Shown in pieces: positions 1 to 64,000 of a stretch of 64,000 nucleotides of DNA. A program made the position numbers and the translations under genes. The first letter of the stretch is position 1; each line of letters opens with the position of its first letter. The notes under the pieces were generated by a model. That model did not search any database. It had not been told where the DNA came from and worked only from the letters and a program-made list of their open reading frames with translations. This DNA is from Tribonema minus (taxonomy: Eukaryota > Sar > Xanthophyceae > Tribonematales > Tribonemataceae), in contig JAFCMP010000533.1 of the NCBI GenBank assembly GCA_017506865.1, positions 248,001 through 312,000 on the forward strand. Reading direction: 5' to 3'.

Positions 1-440
1 GCACCTGATACTCCTCCAGCTCTCGGCACTGCGCATCGGCGACCTCCTCCCGACTGTGCGTTCAGGCAAGCCCATTGTTGACCCTGCAGCGCACCTAATG
101 CTCCTTTTGCTCTCGCCTCTACCCTCCTCTCGGCTGTGTGTTCACACAAGCCCAAAATTGACCTTGCAGCGCACCTGATACTCCTCAAGCTCTCAACGCT
201 GCGCTTCGGCACCCTTTTCCCGACTGTGTGCCCATGAGAGCTTTCTTCACCAGGCAATGGCACTACCTACTAACTCTGCAGCGCACCTGATGCTCCTCCA
301 GCTCTCGCCGCTGTGCATTGGCGACCTCCTCCCGACTGCGCGTTCTGGCGACACTAGTCACCACTATTACCTACCAACCCTGCAGCGCACCTGATACTCC
401 TCCAGCTCTCGGCGTTGCGCTTCGGCACTGTCCTCCTGAT
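1..440 (-). repeat. Exon-edge echoes: 3' edge of WD40 exon 33, five copies
   Basis: GCGCACCTGATACTCCTC-like units start near 1, 88, 170, 281 and 384; each equals the last exon bases, CAG-GTGCGC donor and nearby intron of the real exon end at 553. Confidence 0.88.
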
Positions 441-3400
441 TGTGTGCCCACAAGAGCGCCTTTCACCAGGTAATATATCACGAGGTAATACATCACGATA
501 GCCCATTTCACCTGGTAATGAATACATCACCGACACCAACCCTGCAGCGCACCTGATACTCCTCGAGCTCTCGGCGCTGCGCTTCTGCGACTTCCTCGCG
601 CTGCTGCCGCGCGCGCCCGTCCTCGCTGCGCGTCATGCGCTGGCTGCCGCTGCCGGTCTCGTCGTCGTCCTCGTCGCCCTCAAAGTCGTCATCCATGCCC
701 ATCTGCGCACGATAAACACGCGCCACAAGGAAATGAAATTTAGGAGAGATTGTTAGCCTGCTGCCAGAAATTGCACCACGAGTAAAGGAAAAATTCAGGA
801 GAGGCGGTTAGCCTGTCGCTGGCCTTTGTGCTTGGCAGTACGTATCCTATGATTTTCAGTTATTTCCTGCTGCAGTGAACACTGAGGTCTGCTGTAGTGG
901 TGGTGGTGCTGTCAAGGTCGTCGTCCACACCCATCAGCACACACAAAAGACGCGCCACAACACAATAAAATTCAGAAAAGGTGGTTAACTAGTTGTTGAA
1001 CTTCGTATTTCGCAGCACGTTGTCTAAATTATAAAGAGGCGATCAGCCTGCTGCTGGCCTTTGTGCTTCGCAGCACGTTTTCTATTTTTTCAGTTTTTTT
1101 GTCCTGTTGCGCTTGACATCGTGATTGAGGTATACTGTGGTAATGATGCTGCCCACTCAAACAGCCACATCGCAATTGTTCATGTGCAGCCTCGCCACAT
1201 GAACTCTTTCAGCTTATGCACAAGGGGACTTCTGCTCAATTTCTGAGCCACTGATATTGCAATTGGACCACCAAAGTTCAGGTAGATGTATGTGCAAAGT
1301 AGCCCGTTATGTTGCCGGTGCAGTTGAAGGCAGCTGCCGGCCGCTTCATGATTTGAATCCTTTGCAGATTGTGCTGACGGCGTCAGCATACCGACTGCAG
1401 TTGATGTTTCGAGCGCCTGTGACCGAGTGTACTGAGATCTGTGCAAAAATTTGTTGCTGGCTAGATTCTCAGAATACTGACTTGACGGCAAGTGCTTTTT
1501 CGAGAGCTTATGGCCAACTATACTGAAACCTGTACAGTCACGAAAACCTGTACAGTTGCGTGTTGCTGGCCCAAGATTCCAACTGCAAGTGCTGGTTCAA
1601 CTTCAACTGCCTGTGGCAGAGGGGTACCTCGTCATCCTCGCCAGCGCCGCCAAAGTCATTGGCTTCCTCTGGCAGCAGCCAGGTGCTGATGCGGTACACG
1701 TCCCATCGCGCCGCCTGCAGCACGCGTCATGTTTTATTGCGGCTTCAGAAAAGTGTGGTGAGTAGTGTGTGGAGCCGACAAGGGGTGTCATCAGCCATAT
1801 ACAAGAGTATTCACAAAGTGTGCCGTGGCTTTTCGGTGCCTCTGGCACTGGGGGGCAAGCCATCTGCCACAGCATGGACCGGAGTGACGTTTTGTAAAAA
1901 TGAGCAAAGAACTGTGCGCGAAGCTACGAAAAACACTCACTTTGCAATGTGAAGCTTGCAAGCTAAAAGGCCTTCATGAAACCAACAGCACAACAATTGC
2001 AGGTACTGCTAAAAGAACTGCCGCAGATATCTCACAAACTGGCCTTAGCTCGACATCATTTTGAAATGGTGCATCTGCAGCAGCTAGCTATAGTTCTTGA
2101 AGTTGTAAATATGGACAGATAGATCCTGCTGGCACTGCCAAGATGCAGGAGCACATCTTGAACTGCAGGCAAGTCCTGTTGTCCAGTCACGCTAACCCTG
2201 ACCCCCTCACGCTAGGTCTAGCGTGTATCTTATCATAGTACAGCATACGCTGTGTCAGCCTCCCACACCATAGCGGCCACCAACTGAAACCGCCGACAGC
2301 CTCAGCGGTTCGCAGTTGCAACAGTGACTAAACGCGATTTATCAGCGCTCCTTGTGTCCAAGTCAGTATCTCAGACTGAACCTACAACATGCTCTGCACA
2401 AGCTCACCTCACAACCGAAACACCAGGCGCATCAGTGCTGGGCTGAGTCCAACTGTGACGACCGCATTCAGTGAAAAGAACCAAGAGCAGCCCGGAACTG
2501 TCACACCTCCTACGCTGTGCTGTCACACCTCTGTGTGAATCACACCATCTGCTGAAATTCGGAGTTAACATGTTCATCTTGGTGAGGCAATACTGAGTCA
2601 GGAATACACACTGGCACCCGGACAGCTATCAGCGCACCTGCCCAAATGTCCCAATGTGACAGCCCGTGTCGGTCCAGAGGTGCACTTCACAATCCTCGCC
2701 GGCTGTAATGAGGATGCCCAGGGTGCCATCATCGGGGTCACTCGCGCCCACGGTGGCAAACACGGAGCGCCGCCTGACGTCGCCCCATACAATGCTGTTG
2801 ATGCAGTCTTCGTGAGCCTGCAATGACAAAGCCGAGGGTGTGTGATGGGCTTACTACTAGTGATTAGAGTTGTACTTCGTATTGTGTTTCTTAGCGCGGC
2901 GACCTCAGGCAAGTGCAGTCAATGAGGTGCAAGTCTGCTGCGGGGGCTGTGCCCCAGGTGATGCTGTTGATGCACCCTTCGCGAGCCTGCAATAGCAACG
3001 CCGAAAGTGTGTGATGAGCGTACTACTAGTAGTTAGTGCTGCTCTGATTCTACGTCGCACGTGCAGTCAATGAGGTGCAAGTCTGCTGCCACCAGGCGAT
3101 GCTGTTGATGCAGCCTTCGTGAGCCTGCGATGACGAGGCCGGCGGTGTGTGGTTAGCGTAGTGAAGGTTGCTGAGTTTTGGAGGTCGTTGACCTTGTGCA
3201 AGTGCACTCAATGAGATGCGAGTCTGCTGCAGGGGCTGTGCCCCAGACGATGCGATTGATGCAACCTTCGTGAGTCTGGCACAGCAGGGCCGAAGGATGT
3301 GATGAGCTGTGCTTGATGACTTAAGTTTATTACTTCGCTTGAAGTTATTGTGTAGTTGCTGACATCATGCAAGTGCAGTAAATCAGGTGCAAGACTGCTG

Positions 3401-6400
3401 TGAGGGCTGTCCGGTTCATGCACGTCTGCGCAACGCCTCACTGCACCTCACTGCACAGCCAGGGTGTCACACAAAGCAAGACTAGCTGTTCGCAGCACCG
3501 TACTACAGTAACACTCACGGTGCCATAGCTTCAGCTCTTGTTTAGGCACCTTGAATAAATATGTAATACTGTTGTCACAATGCTCAGGTGCTGCGCACCG
3601 ATCCAAAACCTTGCTCAGGTTATATACCTCACCCCTGATCCCCCCCCCATAACTCTGTTGTCTCAATGACACCCTTCGTCTATGCCAAATCCTTGTGCTC
3701 ACCCCCCAACCTTAGCCCTCAGTTGCAACAAGGTCTTACCTCCCACTCCCTCGTTGCCGAGCACAGCCTGGCAATGCCGCCACCCGCAGCATGCGCACCC
3801 CTGCATTCGTACGTAGATGTACACAAATGCGAGGGACAGTCACCGATGTCATGACAATCACCTTTTCTTGACTGCCGGCATGCTAAGTGGTGGATGTGAC
3901 CACAACGCTCAGTAGCTGTAGTCCGCAGAGTGCGTTAAAGTACAAGTCCATGAGTTCACATTCGTTGTCGCGCGCTGACGTCGGAGTGGCGAGGAGACGC
4001 AAGTGCGCTTGTGTTCTAAGCAGAGAGCATACACGCCTCAACATGCAGTGAATGCAAAGCCATTGACGATGAGCTTGGATTGTTCCTTGGGCTTGCGCAG
4101 TTGGCCTGCTTGTGACCTGAACTGTGCGTAAAGCATGAGGCTGCGCCTTCACTGCACAACTGATATGAAAGCGAATGCGGTCAACGCTGCCATGCTTGTG
4201 ATGCAAGGCACGCCTGGTGCTGGACAGAAGTGGCCCTAGCTGATTACCGTGCGCCTGGCGCAAGCAGGCTTCGGCGCTCACAGAGCACGCATCCTACGAG
4301 CATCACGAGACTCCAATAAACACTGCCGACAAGTAGTACGGGTATGCGACCGGAACTTCATTATAAGCGCTCGCTGAGCAGTGCCAGTAGGCTTTAGAGG
4401 CATCAGGGCCCATGGCTAACCAATACACTCTGCCGACACGCGCAGATACGTGTGTCGAGCCTCATGGAAAGCTCAGGGTTAGGCTGAGAAGTGACGTATC
4501 TGGATGATGCTGCGACGCTGCTGCCGATGCCGAATGCTGCATCCGCACCTGAGCGCTGCTGCGCATCCGCGCCACCGCTCACACAGCACGCATCCCACAA
4601 GCATCATGAAACACCAATCAACACTGCCTACGCGCACAAGCACGCGCCTGTCAATGAGGTTTCACTTGCGCGTGCTCGTGCGTGTGGGCAGTGTTGATTG
4701 GTGTCTCATGATGCTCGTGGGATGCGTGCTCATTGACACAAGTACGCAATTGGTACCTCATTGAAAGCGCTTACTGAGCAGTGACATACCTGGACGATGC
4801 TGCCACGCTGCTGCCGATGCCGAACGCTGCGTCCGCGCCTGAGCGCTGCTGCGCATCTGCCGCCAGCGCCTTCTTTACGGACTCCCTGGACACGCTCATG
4901 AGCTGGCTGCCGCCTGTGCATACCAATAAAGGGTGACAACGCATCGTGCATGCAGTGAGACATGCAAGCTCGCACGCGTTTGCACGGCCGCGAAGAAGGG
5001 TCTGAGGATGGCGCGATACAGGACGATACTGTCATGCGGATGAGTGGCAATCGGCAAGGGCTAAGGTTAGAATGTAGGCGCTGACACACACACACAGGAG
5101 ATTTTGAGCACTGCTGCCTGGCCTCATCACTCTCCTCAACCAAACGTGCCCCCGCAAGTGCTGCTGTCGTTACTTGCTGCTCATAAGATTGCTGCACTAC
5201 CGCTACAATACATGCGCAAACACGGCCTAACCGCGCACCTTCCGCGTCTGCTGCCCCCGCGTCACTGCTCATCTTGGCCAGCAGGCGCTCCACGTCCTCC
5301 CTCTTGTTGGCGCTTCCGCCGCCGCCAGCGCTGTTGCCGCTGCCGCCGCTGTCCTTGGCGTTCGCAGCAGCGGCGCCCCTGCGCTTGGCCACCTGTGAAT
5401 AAAACAAAGCGGCAGCATCATGCGCACAGTACAGTGGTTTACTGTCCTTGGCGTTTGCTGCAGCGGCGCACCTGTGCTTGGCCACCTGCAGACAAAATGC
5501 AGAGGCAACATGGCGCGCACATTGCGGTATTTCAATGTTCGATGGCTTGCCTTGACGACTGAACTGGCCACCTGCAAACAAAATGCAGTGGCAGCATCGC
5601 GCACACATTACAGTGGTTTGATGCCTGATGACTTGCCTTGACTACCACCTTGCGGTGGCAGAGACTTGTGTGGGTGGGAGATGCGCGGGTAACGCTCGCA
5701 CGGTTATGAACTGCATGTGCAAGGTGAAGCTACCGCGTCACCTGCATACCTGTACAACTTCAAGGCCCACTTGTAGGATGGCTTCACTGCTAGCGTTACG
5801 CCTTGTCCGGCACAACAATCAAGCATCACTACTGCATCACTCATGAACATCGAGATGATGCGCAGCCCTTTTTACAACTGCGGACCGCACACGCACCTTA
5901 GTCGCGAGCGTGACGGTTCCCAAGTCGCCATAACAGTACCTAATGAATAGGTAGGCACTTGAGCACAAAGACTGTACGCCACTCACAAAAATCAACAACG
6001 TGCAGCCCTTTCTATGACTGTGAACAGCACACGCACCTTTGTTGCAAACGTGACGGTTCCCAGGTCGCCCAGCTTCCACGCCCTGATGTAACCGCCGCTG
6101 CACGCGGTGAACAGCATGGAGCACTGCCCCGCAGCGCCGTGCGGCGCGGACGCGGCAGCATCGCTCGACGCTAGATCGCACGCCATGGCCGTGATGCCCG
6201 CATTGTCGGGATGGTGGGCCTGCAGCGTGGCAGCGAGCAGCGAAGTGAGGCGGCGGCAGTAAATACAACAAGGCTATCCTTGACAAGCATCAGACCCTTG
6301 CCAATTCGGTCATGTCATCATTGGGGCAGGGGCTGGCGTAGAGGCGAGCAGCGAAGTGAGGCGGCGGCATTAAATACAAAGTGTACAAGGCTATCCTTGA

Positions 6401-9400
6401 CAAGCATCAGACCCTTGCCAATTCGGTCATGTCATCATTGGGGCAGGGGCTGGCGTAGAGGATCTTGGCGTACAAAACGTGTAGCGCGAATGCTAGGCTG
6501 CACTGCAGCACCAGCGCCCAGGCTCGTTTGGCGCAATGCAGACAGGATAAAACCGTAGGAATAGAGTGGCGACAGATGGTGGCAGCGGTTCTGATGAGGG
6601 CAGAAGAAGCAGAGTTAGGGTAAGGGTCAGGTTGAGCAGCGCTCGACACAAGATCGCACGCCATGGCCGTGATGCCCGCATCGTCGGGATGGTGGGCCTG
6701 CAGTGTGGCAGCAAGCAACCGCAATTGACGGCGGCAGTGAGTGGCGAGAGGCGGCGGCAGTGGTTCTGATGAGGGCTGTATAAGCACACGGAGAGGAGAT
6801 CAGGGCATTGAATTCCGGTGGCTGAAGAAAACTGATGGACGAATACCGCTCCACCTCACAGTACCACACATAGTACACTGAGGTACTGACCGATGCATTG
6901 CTCTTTGAGTCACTGCTCCTTGTCTAGCTCGTTGCGCTAGATTCTTTCAATGCTGTCTAATGCTTGGCGCGTTGGTGCCAAGGTCACAGCAGTGGCGCAG
7001 ACCAGCAAGTACCGCGTACATGGGCCTGTCACAGAGTTGTGAAAACACAGAAACAATATTGTGGGCGGCAGTTGATGCCAAACTCATTCGACATTCGTAT
7101 GCTCATGAGCAGTACACCGTCCATGCTGATCATAGAATGCTGCAGACCTATTGAGGTGGGGTGCATACTGGACCGTGCTAAGCGGTACTCAAGCGCTTGA
7201 AGCTCTGCAACCTATAGATACGCCTGGATCAGCCAAGCACATGAAACTTTAAACAAGTATTGTAGGCAATTGATGGTCACTTAGCTTAGAGCAGTACCCA
7301 GATGTTCAGGCATAGCCCCCCCCTCCCCCCCCCCCCCCTGCCCCCCCTCACAGCACACGTCCTCATCACCCCCAAGAACTCACCTTGAGGCCAAAAAGAC
7401 ACGCCCCGTCGATGCAGTCCCAGAACAGCAGATCCCCCTTGGCACCCGCGCTCACAAGCACATGGAACCGCGGCAGGAATAGCAAGCAGTCGATGGCGTT
7501 GGCGCCCCGACCCACTGCGGCGGCCAGGTTTTTGCGGCCGACGGACTCTGCAGGGGGGCGCCTGGGGGGCAGCTCCACTGGGGGTTCCACGCCGTGACCT
7601 GCCGTTGATCAAACGCATGGGGTATGTTGTGATGGCTGACAGGATGGATCAGTGTGCGGGTGGCAGAAGTTCCGACGTCTGCTAGCGATTTTGACGTCAA
7701 CATGCGGATGTTGTCGCGCCCTGAGCAAGGATGAACGAATAGTACATTATTCGAAGCAATGCAAAGCGCTCAGCAAGAACGCAGTTCAAAGTACATAAAG
7801 CAGTGGCAAGCTTGACATCAAGCATGTGAGCTTTTGCGTGTCCTCAGCAAGCAGCAACACAGGGTCTTTCGACCTACGGACTCTGTGGAGGGGCGCTAGC
7901 TCCCCTGGGCGTTTCTATCCATGCCCTACCATTGATCCTTCACGTGTGGTCAGAGCAACCGGTGACGGACCCTACAAGTGAATGCATGTGCGGGAAGCGG
8001 GCGCTGGGGCCGCTATGCTGAGGGCACCGCGCCATGTCCTGCTGCTGATGACATAGGAATTGTACTTAACTTGGCAAATTGGTGCATGTGTAGCTTGCGG
8101 AATGCTGCCACACTGTGATCGCAGACTAACGGATGCAGCGTGTGGAAGGCTATGGCATTTTGAAGGCACACAGATGTGCCAGGGAGCCCAAGAAGGGCGG
8201 GCTGTTTGGCACACAAAAATGCATACCTCAACTTGAAGTATGAGACGTCACTTGCCTGTCTCAGCATCGGCGCTCACCAGAAACCCCCTTCGGAAACCCC
8301 CACCCCCTCCCCCCCCTGCACTGCCACTGGGGGGGCGTGCACGGGCCACGTCGTCTGAGCCACCGCTCAAAACTTTGGCAGCAGAGCTGCCACCATTCTG
8401 TTCGCTTTCGCCACCGTCACTTTCCGGCAGCGCATCTAGTGCGCATTGTTTTGCAGGAGCTTCGGCGACCGGAGGAAGCAGAAGGGGGTTGTTGACGGAG
8501 ACCTGGTGGGAAGGGGGCGGATGGAGAAGGGCGGAGGGGGAAAGGGGGAATTTGCTGGTGATGATGCTGCTGCGCTATAGCAGTGCGCTAACGACTTTGA
8601 AGTACACACTCTTGATGTTTCTGCACTCGTGAAGTACGATGAAGCGTGCGCCTTTGGCAGTGCAGGCGGTGGACATCAACATATGCGGTTGAAACACAGC
8701 CTAGCAGCACGACATGTGCGGGTGCAAGACAGTGCTAGTTGTGCTACCAGCCTGGCAGCACTGCCTTGGCATCAGCTCCCATGCCTTCACTGTTGACATC
8801 TGGACCCTGTGTGCATTACAGGCACAAACATTGCGTTGGCAGCGTCATGTGCTGTGCGGTTGACTTCGACCATCTCCAGAATGAAAAATTATGGTCCTGC
8901 TAAGAAACATTTCTCAAGTCACCGGCATGAGTGCTGCAGCCGGCAGGAGCTTCTGCTGCTAGGAAGGCACTGAGCTGTCATCATGCTGTAGTGCAGATTC
9001 GAGCCAACTCAATTGTGATCACTTGGCCAGCAAAAAGCTTTAGAATTGTGACGGCTCAGGCAAGCAAACCGCTCAGGGTTCTACCATATAGTGTCATGAT
9101 GTAAAGTGTTCGTCGTCATACAGAAACTGCCCATCGATCAAACTTTGAATGCTGAAGCACTTGATACTTCTCAGAGCCAATGCTGTAACGGCACATCCGC
9201 AGTAAAGCATGCACGGCGCAGCCAACAACGGTTTGCTGGGTGACGGCGCAGCTGTAGCACGTGCAGCACACTTCAAGAATGCACACAACTTCAACTTGCA
9301 TCTGCTCCAGCTTCAGCAATCCTGTCACACATGGTGAACACACAGTCACAATGCAGCTGGGGCCTGTTAGCAGCCAGGTTCATGGACTTGAAGTTGCAGT

Positions 9401-12400
9401 TGAAATTGAACTTCATGGAGCATAACAGCGCTCGGCTCCCTCACCTTGCGTGTGGGCATCGCCGCTGCAGGCGCCGCCGCCGCGCCTGCGGCAGCACCCT
9501 CATCACTGGTCATAACAGAATAGAGAGCATGGCGCCAGTAGTGAGTGTGCTGAAGCGTGCTGCCGTGCACTGCGGTACGCGTGATGCGTGAAGGGCGCAC
9601 AGTGTTGCTGGCAACGGCACAATTATTGTTTGTGATGCTGGACAATTTGATGCTGCTGGTGAGATTGTCAAGGCTTGCAGCGTGGACCACTGCGCGCCGG
9701 ACGTGCATTGCTGTTTGACTCATGAAACGGGTCACAGGGCGACTGTTTGAGCGGCCGTAAGCTGCCAGAGTCACCGTCTGCATCTCGTCATTTGCTCCAC
9801 GCAATACGCCGCATGAAGCAGCAACAGCGCCCATTATACGTTAACCTTCTTGTACTGATTGTCTACAGTGTCGTGACTCATTGTAATGATATTGACAGCC
9901 ACGGACACTCGCAGTGGCAGATGCCCACGCTAGCATTTGGAGCCATATGCGCCCTCTAAATCAAAATCAAGGCCCCAACTGTTGGTGCTTGGGCGCTTGT
10001 CAAAGAGCCGAGGCGAGGTCGCTGTTGTACTTCGCCAACCAATGACGACAGCGTGCTGCTCGATGAAGCCCCCTGCCCATGAATGCACACCGACACAAAT
10101 ACCCATACCTTGCATCAAGAGAATGATGATGCCGATGCCAAGCAATTATTATTATACTTTGCCAACCAATGACTATGGCATGCTGCTCGATGAAGCTCCC
10201 CGCCCTTGAATGCACAAAAAGCAAATACCATACCTCGCATCAAGCGCCAAGCGGCGGCTCCAAGACTGCATGCTTCATCATGCGCAAGCGAACATGATCA
10301 AAATTCAACAAGAGCTGCATCCACATCAAATAAGCACTGCTCGTTCACCTGGCAGCATCGCCGCTGGCTGTGTCCCCGTCGCTCCTGCCCGCCGTCACCG
10401 CGGCGCCATCGGCAGCGCCGCCTGTGGTCAAGAGCTTGCCGCCACTGAGGGCGCTGGCGGCAAGCGCTGCTGCAGCCTTGTTGGCATCCTCCGCTTCGTC
10501 GTCGGAGTCCTCTGCGGCCCGCAGCCACCTTTGCGTATAGCAGATAATTGCGGATTGATGTTTCGATACTAAGAAGCGCAGATGCAGTTTTGGGTGATGA
10601 ATGGAAGGTATGGCGCCTTGTATGGTACTCCAGGGGCAGTGGTACGTTGGGGGTGGTGTTGGGTTAGGGTTAGGGTTAGGTGCAGGGTTAGCGTTAGTAC
10701 TAGGCCATTATCGTCATCGGCGTCCTCCGCAGCTTGCAGCCACCTGTTCAGCGAGTACAGTGTTGCTCGGGTCAAGACTCCGTCTTGAGGGGGTCAAAAC
10801 CGTGTACTTTCTATAAACGCGGCCTGTCAGATGAGGTGCAGAAAGCGGTGGCCTAAGCGGTGACATGGGCCAACATGGTGCGCGAGGCTGGCGGCGAGCG
10901 CTGCTGCAGCTTTAATGGCGCCCTATGCTCCGTTGTCGGAGCTCGCTGCGGCCCTCAGCCACCTGTTCAGCGAATAGAGCACTGCTCAGTTCAAGACTGT
11001 GTCTCGAGGAGGGTCAGGCGGTTTAAATGTCATGTGCTTCGAAGCATGACGAGTAGGGTTGCAAAAAAACGTATTTGGCCTCACAAATACGGCGTACTTG
11101 GGGCGTATTTGGCAACCAGGAATACGTCGTGAGCAAACTTCAACATGATAATATGCTGCGTGAAGGGCGTATTTGTGGGGCATGCGGCATGTCTGCTCAA
11201 TTCCGAGCATACAGTCTGCCACAAAAGGGGCACTTGAACTCCAAAATGAACTTCAAAATACACTTTTTTGCAACCCTATTGACAAGTGACTATGCTGATT
11301 GACTGGGCATACAGCACTGTGTGGGATACATGGCGGGTGGTTTGTTACTGCGGCAGCCTGGCGTACCATGCCATCAGTGCCGCTGTGAGGCAGATATGTA
11401 TCAGGGCTTGCTGGAACTGACAGCCAGGTATTGCACTTCGAAGTGTAAATCCTTGCCAAAGCACTCTGTTCACATGTGCCCCCTTCTGCCCCTCCGTGGG
11501 GCACCTCCAAGTCACCCATTACCCTAACCATTTTAGAGTCTGTGCCCGCCATCACCCTAGTCTATTTATGCAGTCCGCGTGTCGACCACGACAACCACCG
11601 CACCAAATCACAAGAAGAAAGAATGCTTCAAGTTGAAGTAGGAGTGTCACCTGCCCCCCTCGGCGCCTCCGTGCGCGGCTTCGTCCATGAACATGCCCTT
11701 GGACGTGAAGCCGCCCAGGGAGGATATGTCGTCGGCCTGGTCCCGGACCTGCAGAATAAATGTTCCAGTGTAAGTGCTCAGCACATATGAATGATACTTG
11801 ATTAAGCGTTCAAATATCGGTGCTCAGCACACATTAATGCTGATGATTGATTGAAACGCATGTTCAGCAAGCAAGACAATGATGTCCTGCCAAGTACTCT
11901 TGCACAAAAGTTCAATCTACTTTTTAACACCAGGTTCGAGTCAGGGCTAAGGATTTGTGTACCTCATGCTGCTGGTCAGATGACATTTGATTGAATTAGT
12001 CAGCATAAAATGCAGCTGTGTAGAGTCATATTAAACTATCACTCTCTCCTTGAAGTTGTTTCTCAACACAACTTTACTCAACGACGCATAGCGCCCCAGC
12101 AGTGTAGCAACTCAGCGCTTTAAATATACTACTCCAGAACTGCTCAAACTCGGAATAGATGCAGGTACCTTCGCAACACACGCTGACAGACAATCTCACC
12201 CGTATGGCCGTCGATTTGAACATTCATGATATGCCTGCAAGGTGATAATTTTTTCACTCAAGCACCTACCTCTTGCTCTGCGGGCCTGAGGCGCATACGC
12301 ATACATGAGATGCCTGCACAGCTATGAATTGTTCAGTCAAGCACCTACCTCTTGCTCTGCGGGCCTGAGGCGCATACGCATACATGAGATGCCTGCTCAG

Positions 12401-14860: not shown

Positions 14861-14900
<40 letters not shown>

Positions 14901-17900
14901 TTCATATACATACACACACATACATGTACTACACGCATGCCATGCGCATCACCAGCGCGCTTGTTGAACATTCAGCGTCCTCACCTCGTCGCTGCCGCCG
15001 ATGCAGTGCCCGCACAGAAGCGCGGAAATTTCCTTGTCGCTGGAGCAGTTTCCGGCGGTTACGCTGGCCCCCCCGCTCTGATGCGTCCCCCTCATGACCT
15101 TCTGACCTCGGGGGCCTTCATGCGTGTGACGGCGCTGTTGCGGGGGTCTAGGAGGACGATGTTGATTGCCAGCCTGCAATGGCAGTAATAACGTACAGAA
15201 GTGTTTGATTTTCGTTGTGAGCGGCTGGGTATGGCCAACGAGGATTCAGTTGCAGAAGTCTAAGGGCAGACTGACGTCATTTTAGCTTGATGCTGAAGAG
15301 AACATACTGATCGGGCCGCCGCTCCAGCTGCTGTTCTGAACAATGCAGTCGCAGGCCTGTAGGAGCCAGCCAGCACACATACAAGCTACGATGCAGGGGT
15401 CGGTGATATTCTGCACAACCTAACCTGCTGCACACTCAATTAACTGACATAGAGTCATTGTGCATACTCGTTTGACGGGAGCTTCTGCGATGAAACTGCG
15501 TGCTCAGGAAGCAGCACGTCATGTCAAAGGCAAGTTTGCGCCGTAAACAACTTCCTCACACAAAGACAACACAGGAGTGCTGATGGCTGATATCATCAGC
15601 AAATGCAGCAAATACTATCTCTGACTGGTTAGCAGGGCGCCGTTGTGCTTTACTCAGACGCGTGCACTGACCACTTCTGCGTCGTGTTTCGACATCTGCC
15701 TCTCAGCAAATTCGAGCATACCTGATTGTTGGCGGTTGTCACCTGATGGCTTCTGATCCCATCCAACGCCAGTGCGCCTGCCTCCCGAAGCAAGGACTTC
15801 AGCCTCTGCATGGTTGAGAGTGCAAGGCGTGCATGATCGTGTCACTCATTGTCAAAGAATGGTACGGCCGCCCCTGGCGTTCACTCAGAAGCTGCCCCAA
15901 CTGTAGCCCTACCAGCCCCAAGACGTCCAAGACGACCTGAACAAACCATGTGGCACATACATCACATACATGCACATACTCCAAACTGAAGTATATAGAT
16001 AGGGTATTATACATAACCACGCACAGCACCTGACGTAAAGCGCGCCCAGTGTGCAAGGGTTCAGACCGCAAACAAAATGCCGCTGATTGCAACTGGCGTG
16101 CCAGCTGCACCTGATTGCACAGCGCCGAGGGTTGCGCGCCCTGAGAAATCATCAGCTGCGGGCAGAGCCATCGCTCTTGTAGCAGTTGATGCTTGAATGC
16201 ACCATGATGTTGACATGCCTGTTGTCACGTGCGACAGCAGAGCTGATCACACGACACTGCGCGACTCGCCTGCCCATTGGAGAAACTCCACACGCTCACG
16301 GTGCCGTCGTTGGCGTCCGTAAGCAGCCACAGTTCCCGACTGCAACTTCCAAGCATTTCCGAGAACACCCCGAGCGAATCCCAGCAGTAACAGCGTCGCA
16401 ATTGAAGTCTGACTGCGTCAAATATTTACGTCCGGTTAGCTCAGACATGCACGAAGCTGCGCAACTCGCCTGCCCATTGGAGAAGTTCCAGACGTGCACA
16501 GAGCCGTCATTGGCGCCCGTAAGCAGCCGCCGGCCGGAGCCATCCAAGCACATGGCCCTGCAAAGCGGGGCGGAGGCGGTTGTGACATTTACAAGTTATA
16601 CAAAAGACCAATTATGGCGCACTTGTGGTGTATGCGGAGCACTGCTGCAGGGGCGCTTGTGGAAGCGCTAACCCTAACTCTTACCCTAATCCTAACCCTA
16701 ACCCCTTCTGCATCAGACAGCTTGGTGACAAACTGTGCGGCGGCACTGATGCAGCAGATCCAAGTTTATTTTTGGAGGGCGCTGGCAGTTGTTCGATCTT
16801 GAAGCATCATCATCAAGAACGCCAGTCGCATCAGCTCAGGGTACTGCGTTGTTCAGCACAATGCCAGAGCGACTGCAGGTGGTGTCTAAAACAGTTGGCG
16901 TCAACACGCGGGCATTAGCCACTGACTACCTACTTCCAAAGCTGATGTTGTCAAGAACTGTGGGCATTGTGCACTACGTGCATGCCATCTTCCCCGACGC
17001 TGACTGTCACCCCGAGCAAACAAGGAAACTGCAGCATCAGCACTCTGAGACCTTTTATGACGACAGTGTACAGGTTACGGCGCCCAACTTTGGTGACCGA
17101 GCTGTGAGCCATCGCACATCATCAGGTAGGCATACCACTTCATTGAGGTATGTAGGTATACCACAGCAGAGGTAGGTATGCCACATCATTGAGGTATGCA
17201 GGTACACCACAGCAGTCTGCTCTTCTTGGCTGAAAGTGAGGCGCGAATTCACCACCGCAGTTTCTATCGTGATCGAGCAATGATGGCTGCACTCAACGCT
17301 CAGAATGTCAGATGGGGCAGCTGCAGGCTGACCTACGAGACATATGTATCCAGCCAGGCACAAAGGGTATGTATCTACATGGATCCCTAGATCTCTACAG
17401 CTGACCCATATGGTTAGGGTTGCAAAAAAGCGTATTTCCCCACACAAATACGCCATATTTAGATACGCCGTATTTCCAGTACGTATTTGACGTATTTGAT
17501 GTATTTGGGCATATTCTGGCACACAGTGTAGATCACACAGGTGTGCAACCTCAACTTCAAGTTGAGATTTGACACCAACAACGGCACTGTACATGCCTTC
17601 TTCTAGTAGGCGCCCAGGATAAAGGGCAGGGTCAGTGTGGGTCAGGGCCAAATGTAGGAGCTCGAGCAGCCACGACGACAGCGAGGGTGGCGTTTACACG
17701 GTGCGCAAATCGTGAGCGATGCACAAAAGGTGGCGATGGCAGACACCTGATGATGATGGCGGTAGCGGTGCTGGCGAGGCTGCTGTACCTGCAAAAATTC
17801 CTGTCGAGCGAGCATTGCTGCCTGTGCGGCCATCCATCGGGGCTGTGTGGCCATCCATCGGTATGGAAGAAAATGCGCGTGTGCACAGAATAAACGATCA

Positions 17901-51683: not shown

Positions 51684-53065
51684 ATGGCTGATGCTGCAAT
51701 TACGCATCTGTACCGCGTGCTCGAGCAGCAATTGTCTCGGCTCTCACAGCGCGTATGGTTGACGGCAGGCCATGCGAATCAAGGTAAGGTACAAACGTGT
51801 CAGGCGTCTCCAAGATGCTGCGCTCGACGTACATGGCCGTGCTGGCCAAGTACCACCGGGGCCACCGCTTGGTGTGCGCCACGTCGGGCGGCGCGGCGGC
51901 GCAGTCCGTCAGCACGTTCCGCATGGCTCAGGAGTGCGGCATCACCCAGAGGGTACTGGACGGCCGCAGTTTTCAGAAGTGGGTCGGCCGCAGCGGCTCA
52001 CCGGAGCTGATTCGCCTTGCGGTGGAGGCGGGTATGGCGGTCCGTTTTAACGCGCTCCGCGGCGCCGCGGAAATCTGCAGCGTCGAGGCTGTGGACGCGC
52101 TGAGCAGACACTTGCGCGAGGACGCCAGGAATGACCTTGAAGATTTTCTCGATGCCTTGCTGACCGTCGCCGCAGCCGCCGCAGGCAGCCGCGCAGAGCT
52201 CGCGCGCGCTCGCGAGGTCCTCGTGTGGGTCTCGCAGCAGAAGCGCAGGCGGGACTGGCCGGAGTGGCTCATGACGGCGCTGTGCTGCAGGGCCGTGGCG
52301 TGCGGCCGCTTCGACACGCTGCGCTGGCTGATCATGATGACGTCCGGCGCCGCGCTGTTCGGGCCATGCGCGCACGACGTCACGGACCTGTGCGAGGGCA
52401 TCGATGTACGCGACTCGTACTACGCCCTCCACGAGTGCTTCCAGGTGCGCGTCGGCAAGTCCGTCTTCAGCATCATGGACATGGCCATCGCCACAGGGCG
52501 CCTTGACATTGTGCAGTGGCTGCGCGCGCGCTCGCTCGCCTTCACCGCCAAGAGCGCCGATCTGGCCGCCGCCGCGGGCCGCCTGCCGCTGCTGCGCTGG
52601 CTGCACGCGCAGGGTTCGGAAGCGTGCCCGTTTGACGCCGCTAGCGTAGTACAGTCCATGCTGACCCTGGAGTGGTCGCGCGTTGCGCTGTGGGCGTGGC
52701 TGCGGGAAATCGGCGCGTTAGATTGGTCCATGCCCGCGAAAAGCGCAGCGCTGTTTTGCGGCGCGTGCACGTCTGCCCACCGTGACTCGATCGTAGCATG
52801 GCTCTTGGCCGAAGGCGCCGCATGGCCCGGCAACCTTGCTGAGCTTGTAGAGAGCCGCAATTGGTCTCCCAATGAAGCGTATTGCGCAGTGCAGGCAGGG
52901 TGCCCATTTGGACAGGGCTGGACCTCCGCCACGTGCGAGTGCATTTTACAAAGCACGGCAGAAGATATGCTTGGCAGCCGAGGTATTTTTTTCCAAGAGG
53001 ATCCACCCTCGTTGTTGCAGAAACTTCACAGCAGCGGGTGCCCCTGCTCATGCCCCAAGCCTTGA
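51684..53065 (+). CDS. Ankyrin-like repeat protein
   Basis: An ORF from ATG 51815 to TGA 53065 (416 residues) with degenerate ankyrin-type helices: ARDGR-like turns such as AVACGRFDTLRWLI, AIATGRLDIVQWLRARSLAF and AAAAGRLPLLRWLHAQG, each a helix-turn-helix ending in WL. These divergent ankyrin units are common in protists and large DNA viruses. An upstream ATG at 51684 gives 33 codons (MADAAITHLYRVLEQQLSRL) that join in frame only if bases 51784-51803, GT...AG and 20 long, are removed; otherwise translation starts at 51815. The unspliced region is GC-rich with no other intron. Substrate or partner unknown. Confidence 0.65.
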
Positions 53066-53916
53066 GTCGGCTTAAAGTCGGGTAGTGTGTTTGTGTCTTG
53101 CGGCTTTGTCAATGCATACACATGTACATAAATATACAACGCAAGTATTTTGTGGCCCTCTGAACCTGACTGGCACCCCGCGTGCAGCACAAAGCCTGTT
53201 TTTTTTTTGCTCGCTGTCTGCCAGACTATGCATGCACAAACTTCAACTATGCATGTATGCATGTGCAGGGCATGAGCGCATGTGTCTGTTGTCAACAGTC
53301 TGCTGCAGCTCCGTGACGTTGCGGTATCACCGTTCTGCGCATGGCAAAACCGCAACCGTACCGCTCGACTCACGGCGCAGGCAGCTTTCTGAGGCCAAGC
53401 ATTCAATGATTGACGCATGCACTGTGTTTAGGAGGCATGCGACTCGTTAGTGCCGAAAGAGCATGAATTGCATGTTTCGCGTAATCTATAACAACAATCA
53501 GGGCGTCTTCATCGCTTGTTCAGTGACAGTGTGCGGCTGCACAGCAGTCTGCACGAGCGCTCGGCGCACAACCGTGCCAGTGGTAATTGGCCAACGTGAT
53601 GGTGCAGTTTGCTTGAAAGTGACCAGCACAACTATGGACAGCGAGGGTGAACTGATCTGAGTACACCAGGTCTTGCATGCAAGCCTCTTGCTGGACCGTC
53701 GTCACATTCAATCATTGTGAATGCACTGCAGCAATTGCTGTTTGAAAACCAGGGCAGGAAGTCTAGTACGGAGAAGCTCAGTGCTCAGCAGCCTATCCTC
53801 GTACACGCAAAGCACCAATGGCTCGCCAAAGTCAGCGGTATGGACCAGACTTGGGGATCTACGTCGTTCTGGAACACATCGTGTACATGTGAACCCTGGC
53901 AACACACGTGACACCC
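53066..53916. other. Intergenic stretch
   Basis: No gene or repeat recognised between the ankyrin-like ORF and the retroelement. Confidence 0.45.
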
Positions 53917-56900
53917 GGCCTCCCTCAGGGCCTTGATTCATTTATAAATACACACAAATTCGCAGGTACATCTCCGCGGCTACAGGCTGCTGCACCTGCT
54001 AGCAGCGATGGCCTTTGGTAGGCAACCGGAGGGAACCGGTATGCCGCCTGCGGCCCGGCTGGCAGCGTTGCTGTCTGGCGACTTCGCGGAGCTACTGAGA
54101 AAGACGCTGTCAGCAGCAGCGGCGCTGCGGGCCCCCAAACCAAACAACGCAGCTATGGCGTCGGCACAAACGAACTTCGATGCCGACTGGACGGAGGCTG
54201 ACTCCAGGCAGCAAACAGCATGCGCTGCCCTCTCAGGCAAGCGACGGGGGGTAGGCTTGGCTGCCGCACGACTAGAGGCGCGTGAAGCATGCGCCCCAGC
54301 AGACGAGGTCACGGCACAGGTGCTGGCAGCAAAGCACCCTGAAACTGGCACCCGGCCGGGGGTAGTCGATACGCCAATGGAGCAAGTGCGCGGCCTGGTA
54401 CGCGACGCCCGGCGGCACTGCTTACACAGCGCAGGGGTGGCAACGACCACCGGGCCAGCTGGCAGCGGCAGTCCTGTCTTCGAATCGGGTCAGGCACATG
54501 ATCACAGCGATAGGCCTGAGGATGCTGCCAGCGCAGCCGGACGGCGCCTCGAGGTGGAGGCGGCAGACATACTGTCGACCTTGTCCGCAGCAGGGGCGGG
54601 GAAGGCAGGAGGGCTGGACGGCCTACGCTATGAACACCTCTTGATGGCCGCTGGGCCTGGTGCACCAGTGAAAGCAGCCACCCGCCCCGTGAGCAGTGCC
54701 TCGCCAGGACTAGCTGGTGATTCAGAATCAGATGTGATGGAACCGGCATTCGCCCATCACCTGGCCAAGGTGTTCACGACGCTGCTTGTTGAGCCCGAAC
54801 TGCTGCCGGAGCAATCGCAACGGCTTCTCCGCGCCGCGGCCCTCTCAGGCATAGGACAGAAGCGGCGTCCGATCGCCTGCTCCAGTGTCTGGCGCAGACT
54901 CCTCGGGTCCACAGCGGCACGGAGTGTCAAGGGCAAGATATCGGGGCTGCTGGCCTCCATGTCGCAGTTTGGCGTAGGATACCGGTCTGGCGTCGAGCAT
55001 GTGGCAGCGCGCGCGCGCGTGTGGCACGAGCTGTATGGCACCACTATCCAACTGGACTGTGAGAACGCATTTAACAGTGTGGATCGCGCCGCCATTGTGC
55101 GGGGGCTTATGCTCTTCTGTCCGGAGCTGCTCCCGCACTTTGAGTCCGTATACTGTGGTGACACTGCCCCAGAGATGCGGGTGGAGGTGAACGGTGAAGC
55201 TCGCATTATCTGCTCCCACCTAGGGTGCCAGCAAGGGGACCCTCTAGGGCCGCTGTACTTTGCAGTGGCAGCGGCCTTCCTACTCTTCTACCCTGATGGA
55301 GTGAATGCGACGCCCGGCAGTATGCCGGCCTACGGCCACAGCACAGCGGAACCGCCAGCCCCGCACTGCGCTTTCCTGGATGACCTCAACGTGCTGCAAG
55401 CTGCCTACTTCGACGATGCAGCGGCCGCTGGGGTGGCAGAGGTGATCCGCCGGCTGGCGGCAGGGGGCCTACGCGTTCGACCAGACAAGTCGCTGGCCAT
55501 CGCCATGCGCGGCACAGTGTTTGATGAAGCGGCCAGAGCACGCCTGCGCGCCCTTGACATACCGTTTGTGGACACCACCATGCCAGAATCCAGTCAGGGC
55601 TTTACGTCGGTCGGGGTACCGGTAGGGCACCCAGCCTATGTGCACGCTGCCATGAGCAAGCATCTTGTCGACGCAGGGACATGGCGATTGTCGTGGCAGC
55701 TAGCTGGAATGGCGCGGCATCACCTACAGGCAGCACAGTTCATTCTACGCAGGTCACTGACGAAGCGCATGGGCTTCTTAGCTCGGGTCGTTGACACGGC
55801 TTTGAGTGAGACATGGTTGCACGCGTTTGATGGGTTCTGTGCATGGACGCTCGAACGCATGCTGCATCTGCACGGCTGCTCTACCGCGGCAGCCATGAAG
55901 TCACACCTGCTGGCCGCCTGCACTGCTGGTGACAATGAGGAAGCCAGCAGTGGCAGCGTGCTGGTATTGCCGCGCTTGGGCCCGCCAGAACTCACGGACA
56001 TCGCAGTGCCACTGCGGGCGTCACGGTTGCCGGAGCGACGAGGCGGTCTGGGCATGCCGCTTTTGGGGCTACTGGCACCAGCCGCATACACGGCCCAGGC
56101 ATGCACAACACTGAGGCCGGCAATAATTCATGCCACTGTGGCAGCAGGGGCCCTGAGACTCGGCACTGACGAACACGGCGCAGTCACCTGGTTCGCGCAG
56201 CACTCATGCGCAATACGCGAGGACCAGGGACTGCCGCCAATCATCGAGGCCGTGCGACGCTCTACGCGAGCGCTGACAGCTGATGGCGGCGAAAAATCAC
56301 GCACAGCTGTGGCCGAGCAGCTCCCAGCATCGTTGCTACGGTGGGCAGCAGATACGACGGCCGCAGCGTCGACGCTCCCCACTGCGGTGCAAGCGATCTA
56401 CGCCGCAACTGCCGTCACGGAGACAGTGACCACTGAGCCAGCCCCACACACCCACGGCATTGTGCCTGGCGCCAAGGCGGCCGCTGCGGCGGCGACCGTA
56501 CCTGGCCCTCAAGCCGCTGCCGCGGCTGCCCCTTCCACGCCCACTAAAACACAAACTAGCGCGGAAGAAAGCAGCTGCAGCGGCGGGCAGGAGGACGACG
56601 ACGACGACTGGGAGGCCTATGCTGACGAGATCTGCAGGAAGGTAGTGCCCCGCCGCCGGCGCGGTCACTTCACGCACGGACTACAAGCCGGCCTTTCAAA
56701 TGTTCTTCGACGTCAATACGAGGATTGCCTGGTGGAGGACCTAGAGGCTGCCTCGGCTGGTGCCGTGGGCAAGCCGACGCAGGCTGCACCTATTGGTGAC
56801 TCGCGCGACACCAGCCGCCGCCGCCAACAGGCTAGCGCACGGGTCCTGGCGCAGCTGCGCAGCCAGCGTGCGTCCGGGGCAATGGCGTGGATGAGCGTGC

Positions 56901-57800
56901 CACCCACTGCCAATGACCGCCCGGGTGCGGCGCCCATGTCCAGTATGGCAGCAGCCACGATGATTTTGATTGCGATCTTCATAGACGGGTGGGGCATACA
57001 GGGCGAGGTGTGCCCATGGCGGTGCAGTGATGTGAGCCCCACCTCCACGCATGCGATCAGCTGCCCCAGCCAGCACATACGGGGGCACAACGCGACACAC
57101 ACTGCCCAAAAGCGGTGCCTGCAGCGCATCTTGAGACAGCACCATGTCTCTATTGTCCGCAATGAGGACGCTAGCGTCTTCAAGGTACCGGGGTATCGGG
57201 CGGACACAGTCATTGACCCAGGGTGTCTGCACTTTAGCAGTGCATACCGTAACAAGGGAATAGTGCTAGACACAAGTGTGCGCGCGCCCACAGCGAGCTC
57301 GTACCTGACAGGCAAAACAAATGCCTCGAACACGGACGGCTATGCTGCTGGGGTGGGGGAGGACGCGAAGGTCAAGCACCACACCGGCACCTTGACGTCA
57401 TCTTGGGCTTTTGTGCCATTCGTGCAGGAGTCGTACGGACGGCTGGGCAAGCAGACAAGCCTTTTTGTTAAGGAGTTGGCAATGCACTCAGCACTGTGCT
57501 CAGGGGGGGGGAAGGCAGATGTGTTACGCAAGGCCGGGTTAGCTAAGCGTCAGATCCTCATTGAGCTGAGCATATCGCTGGCGCGGGAGTTGGCGGAGCG
57601 CGTCATGGCGTACACACGTGGAGCGCGAATGCTGGGCTGTGTTGCGGCGCCGGTATCCAAGCTCCTAGGGCACAGCGCAGACTAGGCTGCTGCGTTGACG
57701 CAAGCTTTTCGATTGCATAGGCAACCCGGCCTCCCTTGGGCCTTTATAAATACAGGTCCATACGTACATCTCCGTGACAAACTGGTAGATGCAGCCAGGC
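53917..57800 (+). mobile_element. Non-LTR-type retrotransposon with C-terminal endonuclease-like domain
   Basis: Proposed extent runs from a tail-like sequence at 53917-53990 through the ORF to its 3' UTR at 57686-57800. The two flanks resemble each other (both hold CCCGGCCTCCCT, TTATAAATAC and GTACATCTCCG), so this copy probably inserted next to, or within, the tail of a related one. No terminal inverted repeats, and no poly-A seen. Confidence 0.6.
54008..57685 (+). CDS. Reverse transcriptase / endonuclease-like polyprotein
   Basis: Single intronless ORF of 1,225 codons. Reverse transcriptase blocks in order (approximate residue): GGLDGLRYEHL 201, QKRRPIACSS 283, IQLDCENAFNSVDR 346 (first catalytic Asp), GCQQGDPLGPLYFAV 406, FLDDLNVL 455 (the usual YADD/FADD box read as FLDD), GLRVRPDKS 490. 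An Ala-rich, Asp-rich linker follows. The last 220 residues carry a Cys/His cluster (CPWRCSDVSPTSTHAISC, 1002) and a motif set GIVLDTSVRAP (1085), KVKHH (1121), FVPFVQESYGRLG (1135) that looks like a restriction-type endonuclease fold, as in elements of the R2/NeSL kind. No stop or frameshift, so it may be recent or active. Upstream of residue 180 no nucleic-acid-binding finger is evident. Confidence 0.88.
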   Translation: MAFGRQPEGTGMPPAARLAALLSGDFAELLRKTLSAAAALRAPKPNNAAMASAQTNFDADWTEADSRQQTACAALSGKRRGVGLAAARLEAREACAPADEVTAQVLAAKHPETGTRPGVVDTPMEQVRGLVRDARRHCLHSAGVATTTGPAGSGSPVFESGQAHDHSDRPEDAASAAGRRLEVEAADILSTLSAAGAGKAGGLDGLRYEHLLMAAGPGAPVKAATRPVSSASPGLAGDSESDVMEPAFAHHLAKVFTTLLVEPELLPEQSQRLLRAAALSGIGQKRRPIACSSVWRRLLGSTAARSVKGKISGLLASMSQFGVGYRSGVEHVAARARVWHELYGTTIQLDCENAFNSVDRAAIVRGLMLFCPELLPHFESVYCGDTAPEMRVEVNGEARIICSHLGCQQGDPLGPLYFAVAAAFLLFYPDGVNATPGSMPAYGHSTAEPPAPHCAFLDDLNVLQAAYFDDAAAAGVAEVIRRLAAGGLRVRPDKSLAIAMRGTVFDEAARARLRALDIPFVDTTMPESSQGFTSVGVPVGHPAYVHAAMSKHLVDAGTWRLSWQLAGMARHHLQAAQFILRRSLTKRMGFLARVVDTALSETWLHAFDGFCAWTLERMLHLHGCSTAAAMKSHLLAACTAGDNEEASSGSVLVLPRLGPPELTDIAVPLRASRLPERRGGLGMPLLGLLAPAAYTAQACTTLRPAIIHATVAAGALRLGTDEHGAVTWFAQHSCAIREDQGLPPIIEAVRRSTRALTADGGEKSRTAVAEQLPASLLRWAADTTAAASTLPTAVQAIYAATAVTETVTTEPAPHTHGIVPGAKAAAAAATVPGPQAAAAAAPSTPTKTQTSAEESSCSGGQEDDDDDWEAYADEICRKVVPRRRRGHFTHGLQAGLSNVLRRQYEDCLVEDLEAASAGAVGKPTQAAPIGDSRDTSRRRQQASARVLAQLRSQRASGAMAWMSVPPTANDRPGAAPMSSMAAATMILIAIFIDGWGIQGEVCPWRCSDVSPTSTHAISCPSQHIRGHNATHTAQKRCLQRILRQHHVSIVRNEDASVFKVPGYRADTVIDPGCLHFSSAYRNKGIVLDTSVRAPTASSYLTGKTNASNTDGYAAGVGEDAKVKHHTGTLTSSWAFVPFVQESYGRLGKQTSLFVKELAMHSALCSGGGKADVLRKAGLAKRQILIELSISLARELAERVMAYTRGARMLGCVAAPVSKLLGHSAD

Positions 57801-59052
57801 ACAACAGGCACTCCAACACGGAAGACGCATGAAGCGGCAAAAGCGGCAAACAACTGAGCACCGACAAAAACACATGGCTGCCTTTTGTGTTCATCTGGAG
57901 AAAGTCGTCATTGTAGGAGTAGCAGCTCAACGTGCACAGATACAACACGCAGCACTGCACCATTCAGCGCATTTTTCGCACATCCATAGGCCAACAGCAC
58001 CTGAGGTCACCACATCAAACGAGTGGGTACCAACAGGGTCCCAAGTTGAAAATGCCAGCCCCATAATCTGTACACACTCGTATCATCGCACAATGCTTCG
58101 TAAACACCCTGAGGGCCGCTCGCAGACCAGCTCAGTTCCCACTCAACAGCTCATCAGCTCCTCAGGCTTGTGCTCTCCTAGGCTGGCGCATCATGATGAG
58201 TCAATCAGCTGGGGCTTGCATTCAGCTTGCAGGGCCTTAGGCAGTTGTGGCGCATCTAGCGGTTCATGCTCTGGGCGGGGACCGCCAGTGTCGTCTGCGC
58301 GTGCATCAACAGTGCAAAGCGTAGCACGTGTAAGCTCGAGCGATGGTGCAGGCGTTACTGCACCAGTCTACTGTGTATACATGCACAGCGTATGTGTGCG
58401 CAAGCATGTGAGGGCACAAGCCAGTACACCTGCTGCTACACGCCTTGACACGCCTGAGACGAGAGCGCGGTGATATGTGGCAAAACACTCAGTAGCCATG
58501 ACTGTAATTACGGCTGCACAGGTAGTAGCAGCAGTGAAGTGGAAGATGCCAAGGGACTCCGAGTGACAGCGCTCCGGTGATAGCTCTGATGCCGTCAAAT
58601 GATCAGCACTGATGCAGAGCTCATGCACTGAGTGTTGCCACGGTGATGGTTTGCCAACACCGCGGCGCAGTCGCCCGCATGCTCAACGCTACTACGTGAG
58701 GCGCCCTGCATGAAACAACTTTGTACCATTGCTCTGGTGACGGTTGACATTGCCTCTGTGCCATTGCTCGGGTGGAGACAAGCTCATATATTTTGCGCTG
58801 ACGCTGGTAGCAGCATGATGAGCGCCACTAAGCGTCAAAGCCCAGCATCGAAGGCGCTACCCACCGTTACATTATGCTGCAGTCACTGATGGCAATGATA
58901 GTATTGGAAATGGTGGGTGCACTGTAGGTAGATGTCACTGCGCAGTGACTGGCAGTAGTAGGTGTTGTCGTAGTAGTGGTAGCAGTAGTGGTAGCTGCGT
59001 TTGGATGAAGTGGTGCTACGCCTAGGCGCACCCTAGCACTGAGAGCCAGTTA
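57801..59052. other. Intergenic stretch
   Basis: A 214-codon plus-strand ORF (57829-58473) is open but low in recognisable structure and partly covers retroelement 3' flank. I see nothing else. Confidence 0.4.
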
Positions 59053-59238
59053 CTATTGGTGTCTTGTGTACAGCATACATACTCCGTACTGAAGTATCGT
59101 ACAGGCTTCTTTGCCTCTCAAGCGCAAGAATTGAAGTACCCTGGTGCGGGGGCACATGGAGGAGGACGTAGGGGAGGATCTCGAGATGCCATTTGGCGGC
59201 GGCGGCGTTTGAGTGGTTGTCATTGCAACACTTTCAGA
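59053..59238 (-). CDS. PLAC8-like gene, possible last exon
   Basis: Phase-0 continuation SESVAMTTTQTPPPPNGISR to a TAG stop, 62 codons with the stop. Pro/Thr/Ser-rich tail; only splice-site and phase support it. Confidence 0.35.
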   Translation of the reverse strand, partial: SESVAMTTTQTPPPPNGISRSSPTSSSMCPRTRVLQFLRLRGKEACTILQYGVCMLYTRHQ

Positions 59239-63450: not shown

Positions 63451-63549
63451 CTGTAATGCGGAGTAGACTCAAGCGGTCACCAGAACTTTGGCTGCAGATT
63501 TGCGCCATTACTACTTCTACTTCGATACATAAGTATGATGTATTTCTTG

Positions 63550-64000
63550 ATTCTGTGCGTACCGAGCACGGCCCGCAGCACGTCACGATGGGTCGCACAA
63601 TTCATGCACACTTAGTCCTTGCTTGTGGGCGTACCAAGCATGGCCCGCAGCACGCCGAAATGAGGCGCATAACTTTAAAATACAGTCCGCAGCATGATAT
63701 ATTGCTTGCTTGTAAACGTACCGAGCATGGCCCGCAGCAGTGTGGCAACACGTCACGCTGACGCGCACAACTTTTCCAAGGTGCGCGATGAGGCGCATAA
63801 TTCGTTAAAAAACATACTGTGAGGCGTGATGCATGCCTTGCTTCTGGGCGTACCGAGCATGGCCCGCAGCACGTCGCGATGAGTATACTCTTCAATACAC
63901 TTCCTTTTGTTATATTGATTTTAGTAAGCGCAGATTCCTTCAAATTAGTTAAAACTTCAAATGTGAGGCATGATGTACTCCTCATTGCTGGGCGTACCGA
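63550..64000 (-). repeat. Echo array of an upstream PLAC8-gene exon, five copies
   Basis: GCGTACCGAGCATGGCCCGC with AGCACGTC.CGATG at about 63556, 63636, 63716, 63848 and (cut by the window end) 63990; in gene sense each is ...GTGCTCG-GTACGC, an exon end plus donor. Confidence 0.9.

Follow-up and report, generated by a model that had tools for sequence, protein, structure and literature searches.

The window analysed here is a 64 kb stretch of the genome of the yellow-green alga Tribonema minus (158 Mb in 554 contigs), comprising bases 248001–312000 of contig C530 (676,998 bp). Its introns contain direct copies of the ends of the adjoining exons together with their splice sites. Exon models were built with a purpose-written gene finder based on a hidden Markov model (HMM), for which 264 kb in and around the window served as training sequence, and all exon edges are predictions of this program from the DNA, backed in part by homology. 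The models of the long region include FPP synthase, insulin-degrading enzyme and type I metacaspase, assigned by matches to solved structures, as well as an EF-hand/WD-repeat gene, the homologues of which (P0121 and P0122) hold both parts in an order read by eye. Because these homologues carry both parts in order, two of the three copy-bearing models of the window are probably one EF-hand/WD-repeat gene. The preliminary description of this sequence had placed the copies in three unrelated genes on both strands; three gene models and both strands stand, although the number of genes is probably smaller.

The edge test consisted of an 80 bp window spanning each exon edge, which was searched against the adjoining intron. 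The gene finder mistakes some copies for exons. Before counting, 37 of the 185 predicted exons in the eight long gene models were therefore excluded, either because they were shorter than 24 bp or because they duplicated a longer exon nearby; 140 introns were kept, 128 of them at least 300 bp in length. A raw count on all predicted exons, in which 132 of 378 edges had copies, was discarded because copies had been called exons. The overall sample was one 304 kb region and about 18 kb from contigs C60, C210 and C135.

Copies of exon edges in the window

Copies in the adjoining intron were found for 24 of the 79 testable exon edges of the window, amounting to 39 copies in three gene models and on both strands. 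Self-BLAST of the window gave 117 direct and 23 inverted pairs. Among the direct pairs, 84 were less than 500 bp apart, whereas three Markov shuffles of the window gave none. In what follows, percentages are self-BLAST identities (except for exon 20207–20301), and the edge search, on which the copies rest unless stated otherwise, was run with a minimum score of 44 and required that the match extend across the splice point.

On the minus strand, exon 553–702 of the EF-hand/WD-repeat gene (HMM model and edge search) has copies from both edges. Five copies of its 3′ edge lie within 1–444 (near 4, 94, 174, 286 and 390; best pair 373–435 and 535–597, 92%; self-BLAST and edge search), and one copy of its 5′ edge occupies 912–1099 (69% over 194 columns). 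Exon 2638–2817 of the same gene (HMM model and edge search) is accompanied by three copies of its 5′ edge within 2961–3410 (near 2986, 3124 and 3275; self-BLAST and edge search). Further along the minus strand, the 3′ edge of exon 4790–4913 is copied at 4460–4578 (84%) and the 5′ edge of exon 5239–5392 at 5442–5645 (73%), while exon 6037–6219 is flanked by copies of both its 3′ edge (5862–5929, 84%) and its 5′ edge (6635–6738, 88%). The 5′ edge of exon 10349–10528 recurs at 10887–10964 (82%) and the 3′ edge of exon 16470–16557 at 16250–16328 (85%). Two copies of the 3′ edge of exon 20207–20301 lie within 19736–20093 (near 20028 and 19852, the nearer at 92%; self-BLAST and edge search). These are followed by 5′-edge copies of exon 21110–21232 (21442–21635, 76%), exon 22877–22991 (two within 23097–23322, the best at 88%) and exon 24234–24380 (24548–24670, 77%).

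The intronic stretch 28865–29192, again on the minus strand, holds copies of two exons, with two (near 29114 and 28923) of the 3′ edge of exon 29306–29485 and one (near 29065) of the 5′ edge of exon 28644–28783; two copies of the 5′ edge of exon 29306–29485 lie on the other side of that exon, within 29607–29865 (self-BLAST and edge search for both stretches). The 3′ edges of exons 30445–30594, 31390–31464 and 33162–33228 are copied once at 30243–30346 (75%), twice within 31080–31344 (self-BLAST and edge search) and once at 32810–33009 (74%), respectively. Exon 34341–34432 has two copies of its 3′ edge within 34037–34254 (up to 91%) and one of its 5′ edge at 34669–34737 (79%). At the end of the window, copies near 63562, 63634, 63853 and 63997 (within 63531–64000, minus strand) derive from the 3′ edge of exon 64304–64612, which lies beyond the window together with two more copies; these are outside the window count.

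On the plus strand, a tandem array with a period of about 107 bp (40652–40984; self-BLAST and edge search) contains copies of the 5′ edge of metacaspase exon 41073–41176, the 3′ edge of which is copied at 41557–41621 (78%). Metacaspase exon 43639–43874 (HMM model) is the source of a second array at 43996–44313, with three copies of its 3′ edge near 44071, 44184 and 44303, the first being 96% identical over 83 bp. Two 5′-edge copies within 45606–45852 belong to the metacaspase exon starting near 46028 (45816–45852 against 46018–46054, 95%; the one near 45606 was recognized by eye); this exon was predicted too short and is outside the counted 79 edges.

Two mobile-element-like features were also seen in the window. 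An insertion in a metacaspase intron (44398–45134) has inverted ends AGAGTTGTCAGCCGA and TCGGCTGACAACTCT and is flanked on both sides by ATGGTTGT; by eye, it is like a non-autonomous DNA transposon with an 8 bp target duplication. A reverse-transcriptase reading frame, read as long interspersed nuclear element (LINE)-like, lies next to a frame with ankyrin-type repeats at 51788–57685, and a related reverse-transcriptase copy is located about 14–8 kb upstream of the window start.

Orientation, polarity and distribution

Over the 264 kb around the window, self-comparison gave 369 direct and 27 inverted pairs, in agreement with the direct orientation described previously, and one shuffle of this sequence gave no direct pair closer than 1 kb. 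When each edge was searched against its own adjoining intron, as the preliminary description had proposed, scores of at least 50 were obtained for 30 of 123 3′ edges and 34 of 124 5′ edges (64/247 in total), whereas none of the 247 edges reached this score when the target was a single intron drawn at random from a different gene, and only one did so in the reverse-complement control. With the lower threshold of 44 and a match across the splice point, 125 copies were counted at 61 edges, with a single copy at 32 of these edges and more than one at 29. The nearest copy lay at a median distance of 173 bp (5–95% range 88–412 bp). For 12.6% of exonic bases (2655/21058), a copy with 80% identity or more was present within 1.5 kb in sequence outside exons. 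The exon-edge copies are confirmed as real and occur at about a quarter of exon ends, and the earlier statement that they do not reflect microsatellite growth is upheld. None of 43 measured copies covers an entire exon, although this measure is partial, the nearest copies having largely dropped out.

The polarity of the copies, with 3′-edge copies downstream and 5′-edge copies upstream of their exon, is nearly absolute, as had been claimed. At score 44 in a search of about 800 bp, copies were found on the expected side of 28/89 3′ edges and 31/89 5′ edges (59/178), whereas the opposite side, where the search stretch is shorter by the exon length, yielded 1/89 and 0/89 (1/178). Some repeats are immediately adjacent: among the most similar ones, in introns or outside long genes, adjacent repeats occur at offsets of 108, 181, 71 and 91 bp with 95–99% identity. 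In the adjacency test 63 of 349 local alignments abut or overlap, the intron flanks often being unalignable.

All eight long gene models in the 264 kb carry copies, and local direct repeats make up 17–36% of their length. In stretches of more than 2 kb outside the long genes this share is 0–6%, and much of the sequence there appears by eye to be transposon-like or to consist of recently multiplied genes; small predicted genes outside the long models had copies at 1/13, 0/4 and 1/8 edges. The pattern is not general across genes, since no copies were found at 34 edges of the genes of the next 40 kb or at ten edges in a 10 kb piece of another contig (L022). Local repeats are still present in the next 40 kb, accounting for 0–18% of windows per 8 kb bin, exons included. 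The genes of L024–L027 and L022, which have no edge copies, have longer exons and more G+C, with an intron G+C content that is similar or slightly higher. The sharp contrast in copy content between neighbouring genes is unexplained.

A paralogue of the FPP synthase gene on contig C135 (6.2 kb) has the same eight exon lengths as the gene on C530 and shows the same phenomenon. It contains five local direct pairs, four of which run across exon edges with the expected polarity, one of them by only nine exon bases. One edge is copied in both paralogues, and the C135 copy there is 95% identical to its own exon including the intron flank, suggesting a separate and more recent event; the other copied C135 edges have no counterpart copy in the edge list of the C530 FPP synthase gene.

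The introns of the long genes also hold perfect TTAGGG tracts. Of 35 tracts of at least 14 bp in the 304 kb, 34 lie in long-gene introns (17 sense and 17 antisense), and a shuffle contained none. Fourteen are found in the window between 10661 and 43611, for example at 31900–31958 and 35788–35837. No link between tracts and duplication per intron was found (20 introns with and 99 without tracts; p = 0.71).

Origin and decay of the copies

We consider it likely that the edge copies arose by recurrent direct tandem duplication in introns, being kept where the exon remained intact and being visible because the exon copy is constrained. The introns of long, exon-rich genes would grow as short segments, roughly 70–250 bp long, are duplicated in direct tandem again and again. 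When such a segment straddled an exon edge, the copy joined to the remaining exon would stay functional and the other would turn into intron. The spare copy of a 3′ edge would then have to fall downstream of its exon and that of a 5′ edge upstream, so that the polarity follows without any special rule: when a tandem duplication runs contiguously over one edge, the intact exon ends up outermost and the superfluous copy inside the neighbouring intron. Local copying to scattered positions should fill both flanks of short exons, whereas contiguous duplication over a single edge fills only one, and scattered insertion of short copies, which was also simulated, is disfavoured by the polarity. Duplications within an exon or over a whole exon would alter the protein and be lost. 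As purifying selection would hold the exon copy while the spare copy decays, pairs involving an exon edge would be recognizable for longer than intron–intron pairs.

Intron interiors are duplicated as well. Windows of 80 bp inside introns, searched to one side at score 50, had copies in 10.5% and 8.7% of cases (1339 windows each), compared with 24.4% and 27.4% of edges, so that duplication is not exclusive to exon edges; with the partner allowed anywhere within 1 kb, 19.6% of 1564 intronic windows had a local copy. The preliminary description had named equally frequent duplication of random intron segments as the control that would speak against it. The outcome lies in between, interiors being duplicated at about 37% of the edge rate, while neutral simulation explains the gap only in part. 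Some of this gap is to be expected: both members of an intron pair decay, whereas in an edge pair the exon copy changes very little. The neutral model combined uniform tandem duplication, decay, indels and a constrained exon; the simulations were simple, with parameters tuned by eye. A first, steady-state version fitted the interiors poorly, and the fit improved when a recent fall in rate was built in.

Several results of this comparison weigh against uniform duplication. Simulations fitted to the interiors predict copies at 15–23% of edges at score 44 and 10–13.5% at score 60, the highest predictions coming from parameter sets whose interiors overshoot the observed values and the sets closest to the interiors giving 15–19%. 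The observed values are 27.5% and 20.6%, rising to 36% and 29% for 75 edges of 41 exons backed by protein records that do not carry the T. minus label. An edge surplus of 1.2- to 2.4-fold (score 44) or 1.5- to 3-fold (score 60) remains unexplained. Edges with several copies are also more frequent than simulated (43% against 11%). The copies reach less deeply into exons, windows 80–120 bp deep being copied in 0/114 cases at score 40 and 2/114 at score 36, compared with 3–6% in simulations at score 44. In 21 of 62 3′-edge copies similarity is lost 6–20 bp past the splice site (11/114 in simulation), an effect less marked in 5′ copies (12/57, simulation 17/113), and copies that lie wholly within the first 100 bases of an intron, with no exon part, occur less often than in simulation (4/66 against 39/153). 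Flank identity barely climbs with the identity of the exon part, although a high-indel simulation approaches the same behaviour. Adding symmetric slippage or generic gene conversion to the simulation left the surplus in place: homology-driven slippage produced multiple copies per edge but at too few edges, and gene conversion raised interiors as much as edges.

These discrepancies leave some room, though we regard it as doubtful, for a second process besides uniform tandem duplication, in which copying directed at exon boundaries would repeatedly place short edge blocks in the intron next to them and bring their number to as much as two or three times the neutral expectation. A mechanistic version, in which breaks or template switches favour exon–intron boundaries (nucleosome edges, R-loops or splicing-linked lesions) and yield short blocks that rarely extend 80 bp into the exon, is on balance unlikely. 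The surplus over neutral simulation, the shallow reach into exons, the pile-up of 3′-copy ends shortly past the splice site and the four edge-straddling pairs among the five of the C135 paralogue would all fit such aimed duplication, as would the windows directly before the 3′ splice site, of which 16.4% are duplicated, with a gradient, compared with 8.2% inside introns. However, windows directly after the 5′ splice site show no such excess (7.0% against 8.2%, score 36) and a flat profile, and the splice signals ahead of the 3′ splice site may themselves be constrained. Moreover, some of these features also result from neutral decay next to a constrained exon, and much of the loss of flank similarity can be reproduced by raising the indel rate.

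The copies look dead, and their decay is near-neutral, which makes it very unlikely that they are functional decoys or alternative exons with splice signals and coding sense under selection, one of the causes suggested in the preliminary description. Of 25 exon-side indels in copies, 24 are frameshifting and one is in frame. At sites with G or C in the exon, the copy differs from it in 106/1239 cases at codon positions 1 and 2, 89/510 at fourfold sites and 188/1084 in intron, a ratio close to 1:2:2 that fits a neutral copy of a constrained exon. Selection on the copies, which had been suspected from the codon-position data, was not upheld once G/C sites were split off, although A/T sites retain larger ratios (65/985, 48/103 and 198/958, respectively), the high fourfold value probably arising because A/T-ending codons are derived in the exon. 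Among copies of the same edge, identity reaches 0.86 and 0.91 at codon positions 1 and 2 but only 0.78 at position 3 and 0.76 in intron, as coding function would predict, but the bootstrap ranges by family are wide and the copies of one family are not independent. Likewise, all 53 aligned 5′ copies agree with the exon's own site at the G of AG and at the nucleotide preceding this dinucleotide, but neither its A (0.92) nor the T of the donor (0.88) is particularly well preserved, and the splice dinucleotides are neither clearly kept nor purged (GT in 41/52 copies, with GC in eight; AG in 49/53). The public T. minus gene model P0181 contains tandemly repeated peptides that, by eye, resemble copies taken as exons, which would suit alternative exons; model P0003 reads through past an exon end, and both oddities look like annotated copies or intron.

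Gene conversion gave no overall sign in a three-way distance test. The ratio of copy–copy to exon–copy distance was 0.73 overall, equal to that of a simulation without conversion, and in a small subset with related flanks it was 0.77, compared with 0.62 and 0.60 in simulations; the first metacaspase copy (43996–44078) is an exception by inspection, since the exon seems to have overwritten it. False local copies could in principle also stem from mixed haplotypes or unresolved repeats in the assembly. Such an artefact is extremely improbable, since 301 of 349 local pairs are less than 90% identical, each copy has its own flanks and indels, unlike a product of misassembly, and several genes, both strands and a second contig are affected.

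Relation to known systems and significance

Introners are families of elements shared between genes, whereas none of the 247 edge windows within the 264 kb matched the randomly picked intron of another gene. What the two have in common is repeated sequence in introns near splice sites; introner elements are treated in a review (PMC3488318). Minisatellite-like tandem arrays resemble some of the introns studied here, which hold arrays with periods of about 44–200 bp, but the present arrays start at the edge of an exon and take in a splice site as well as coding sequence, and about half of the copied edges have a single copy. A close counterpart is the potato RdRp gene, for which intron gain by tandem genomic duplication and also an 83 bp tandem duplication within an intron are described (PMC4974935). 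Both cases involve contiguous direct duplication spanning intron–exon structure with splice signals; the potato case, as described there, concerns single events that alter gene structure, whereas in T. minus there are dozens, which do not alter the arrangement of exons and build up within introns.

Exon-like sequence in neighbouring introns, recognized by its homology to the exon, is likewise seen in tandem exon duplication and with mutually exclusive exons (PMC9013439), but here the copies are partial exons from one edge only and do not keep the reading frame. In the same source, exonic bases that have a homologue with 80% identity or more within the gene or around it amount to about 2% in human, 0.08% in fly and 0.06% in worm; the 12.6% found here conveys scale and is not a test, because the methods differ. 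No published account of this pattern was found in a literature search that included Tribonema, as judged from titles and the openings of abstracts. The kind of event is already known, while its density and one-edge habit appear in none of the papers that this search brought up.

These findings carry a warning for annotation, as the gene finder took copies for exons and the peptides of P0181 look like copies. They also provide a natural test of splice-site choice, with many true sites that have near copies about 90–400 bp away. Introns growing from their own exon edges constitute a fossil record of intron lengthening, in which the spare copies can be dated codon by codon against a conserved reference. 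If the edge surplus is true genome-wide, it would indicate boundary-linked DNA breakage.

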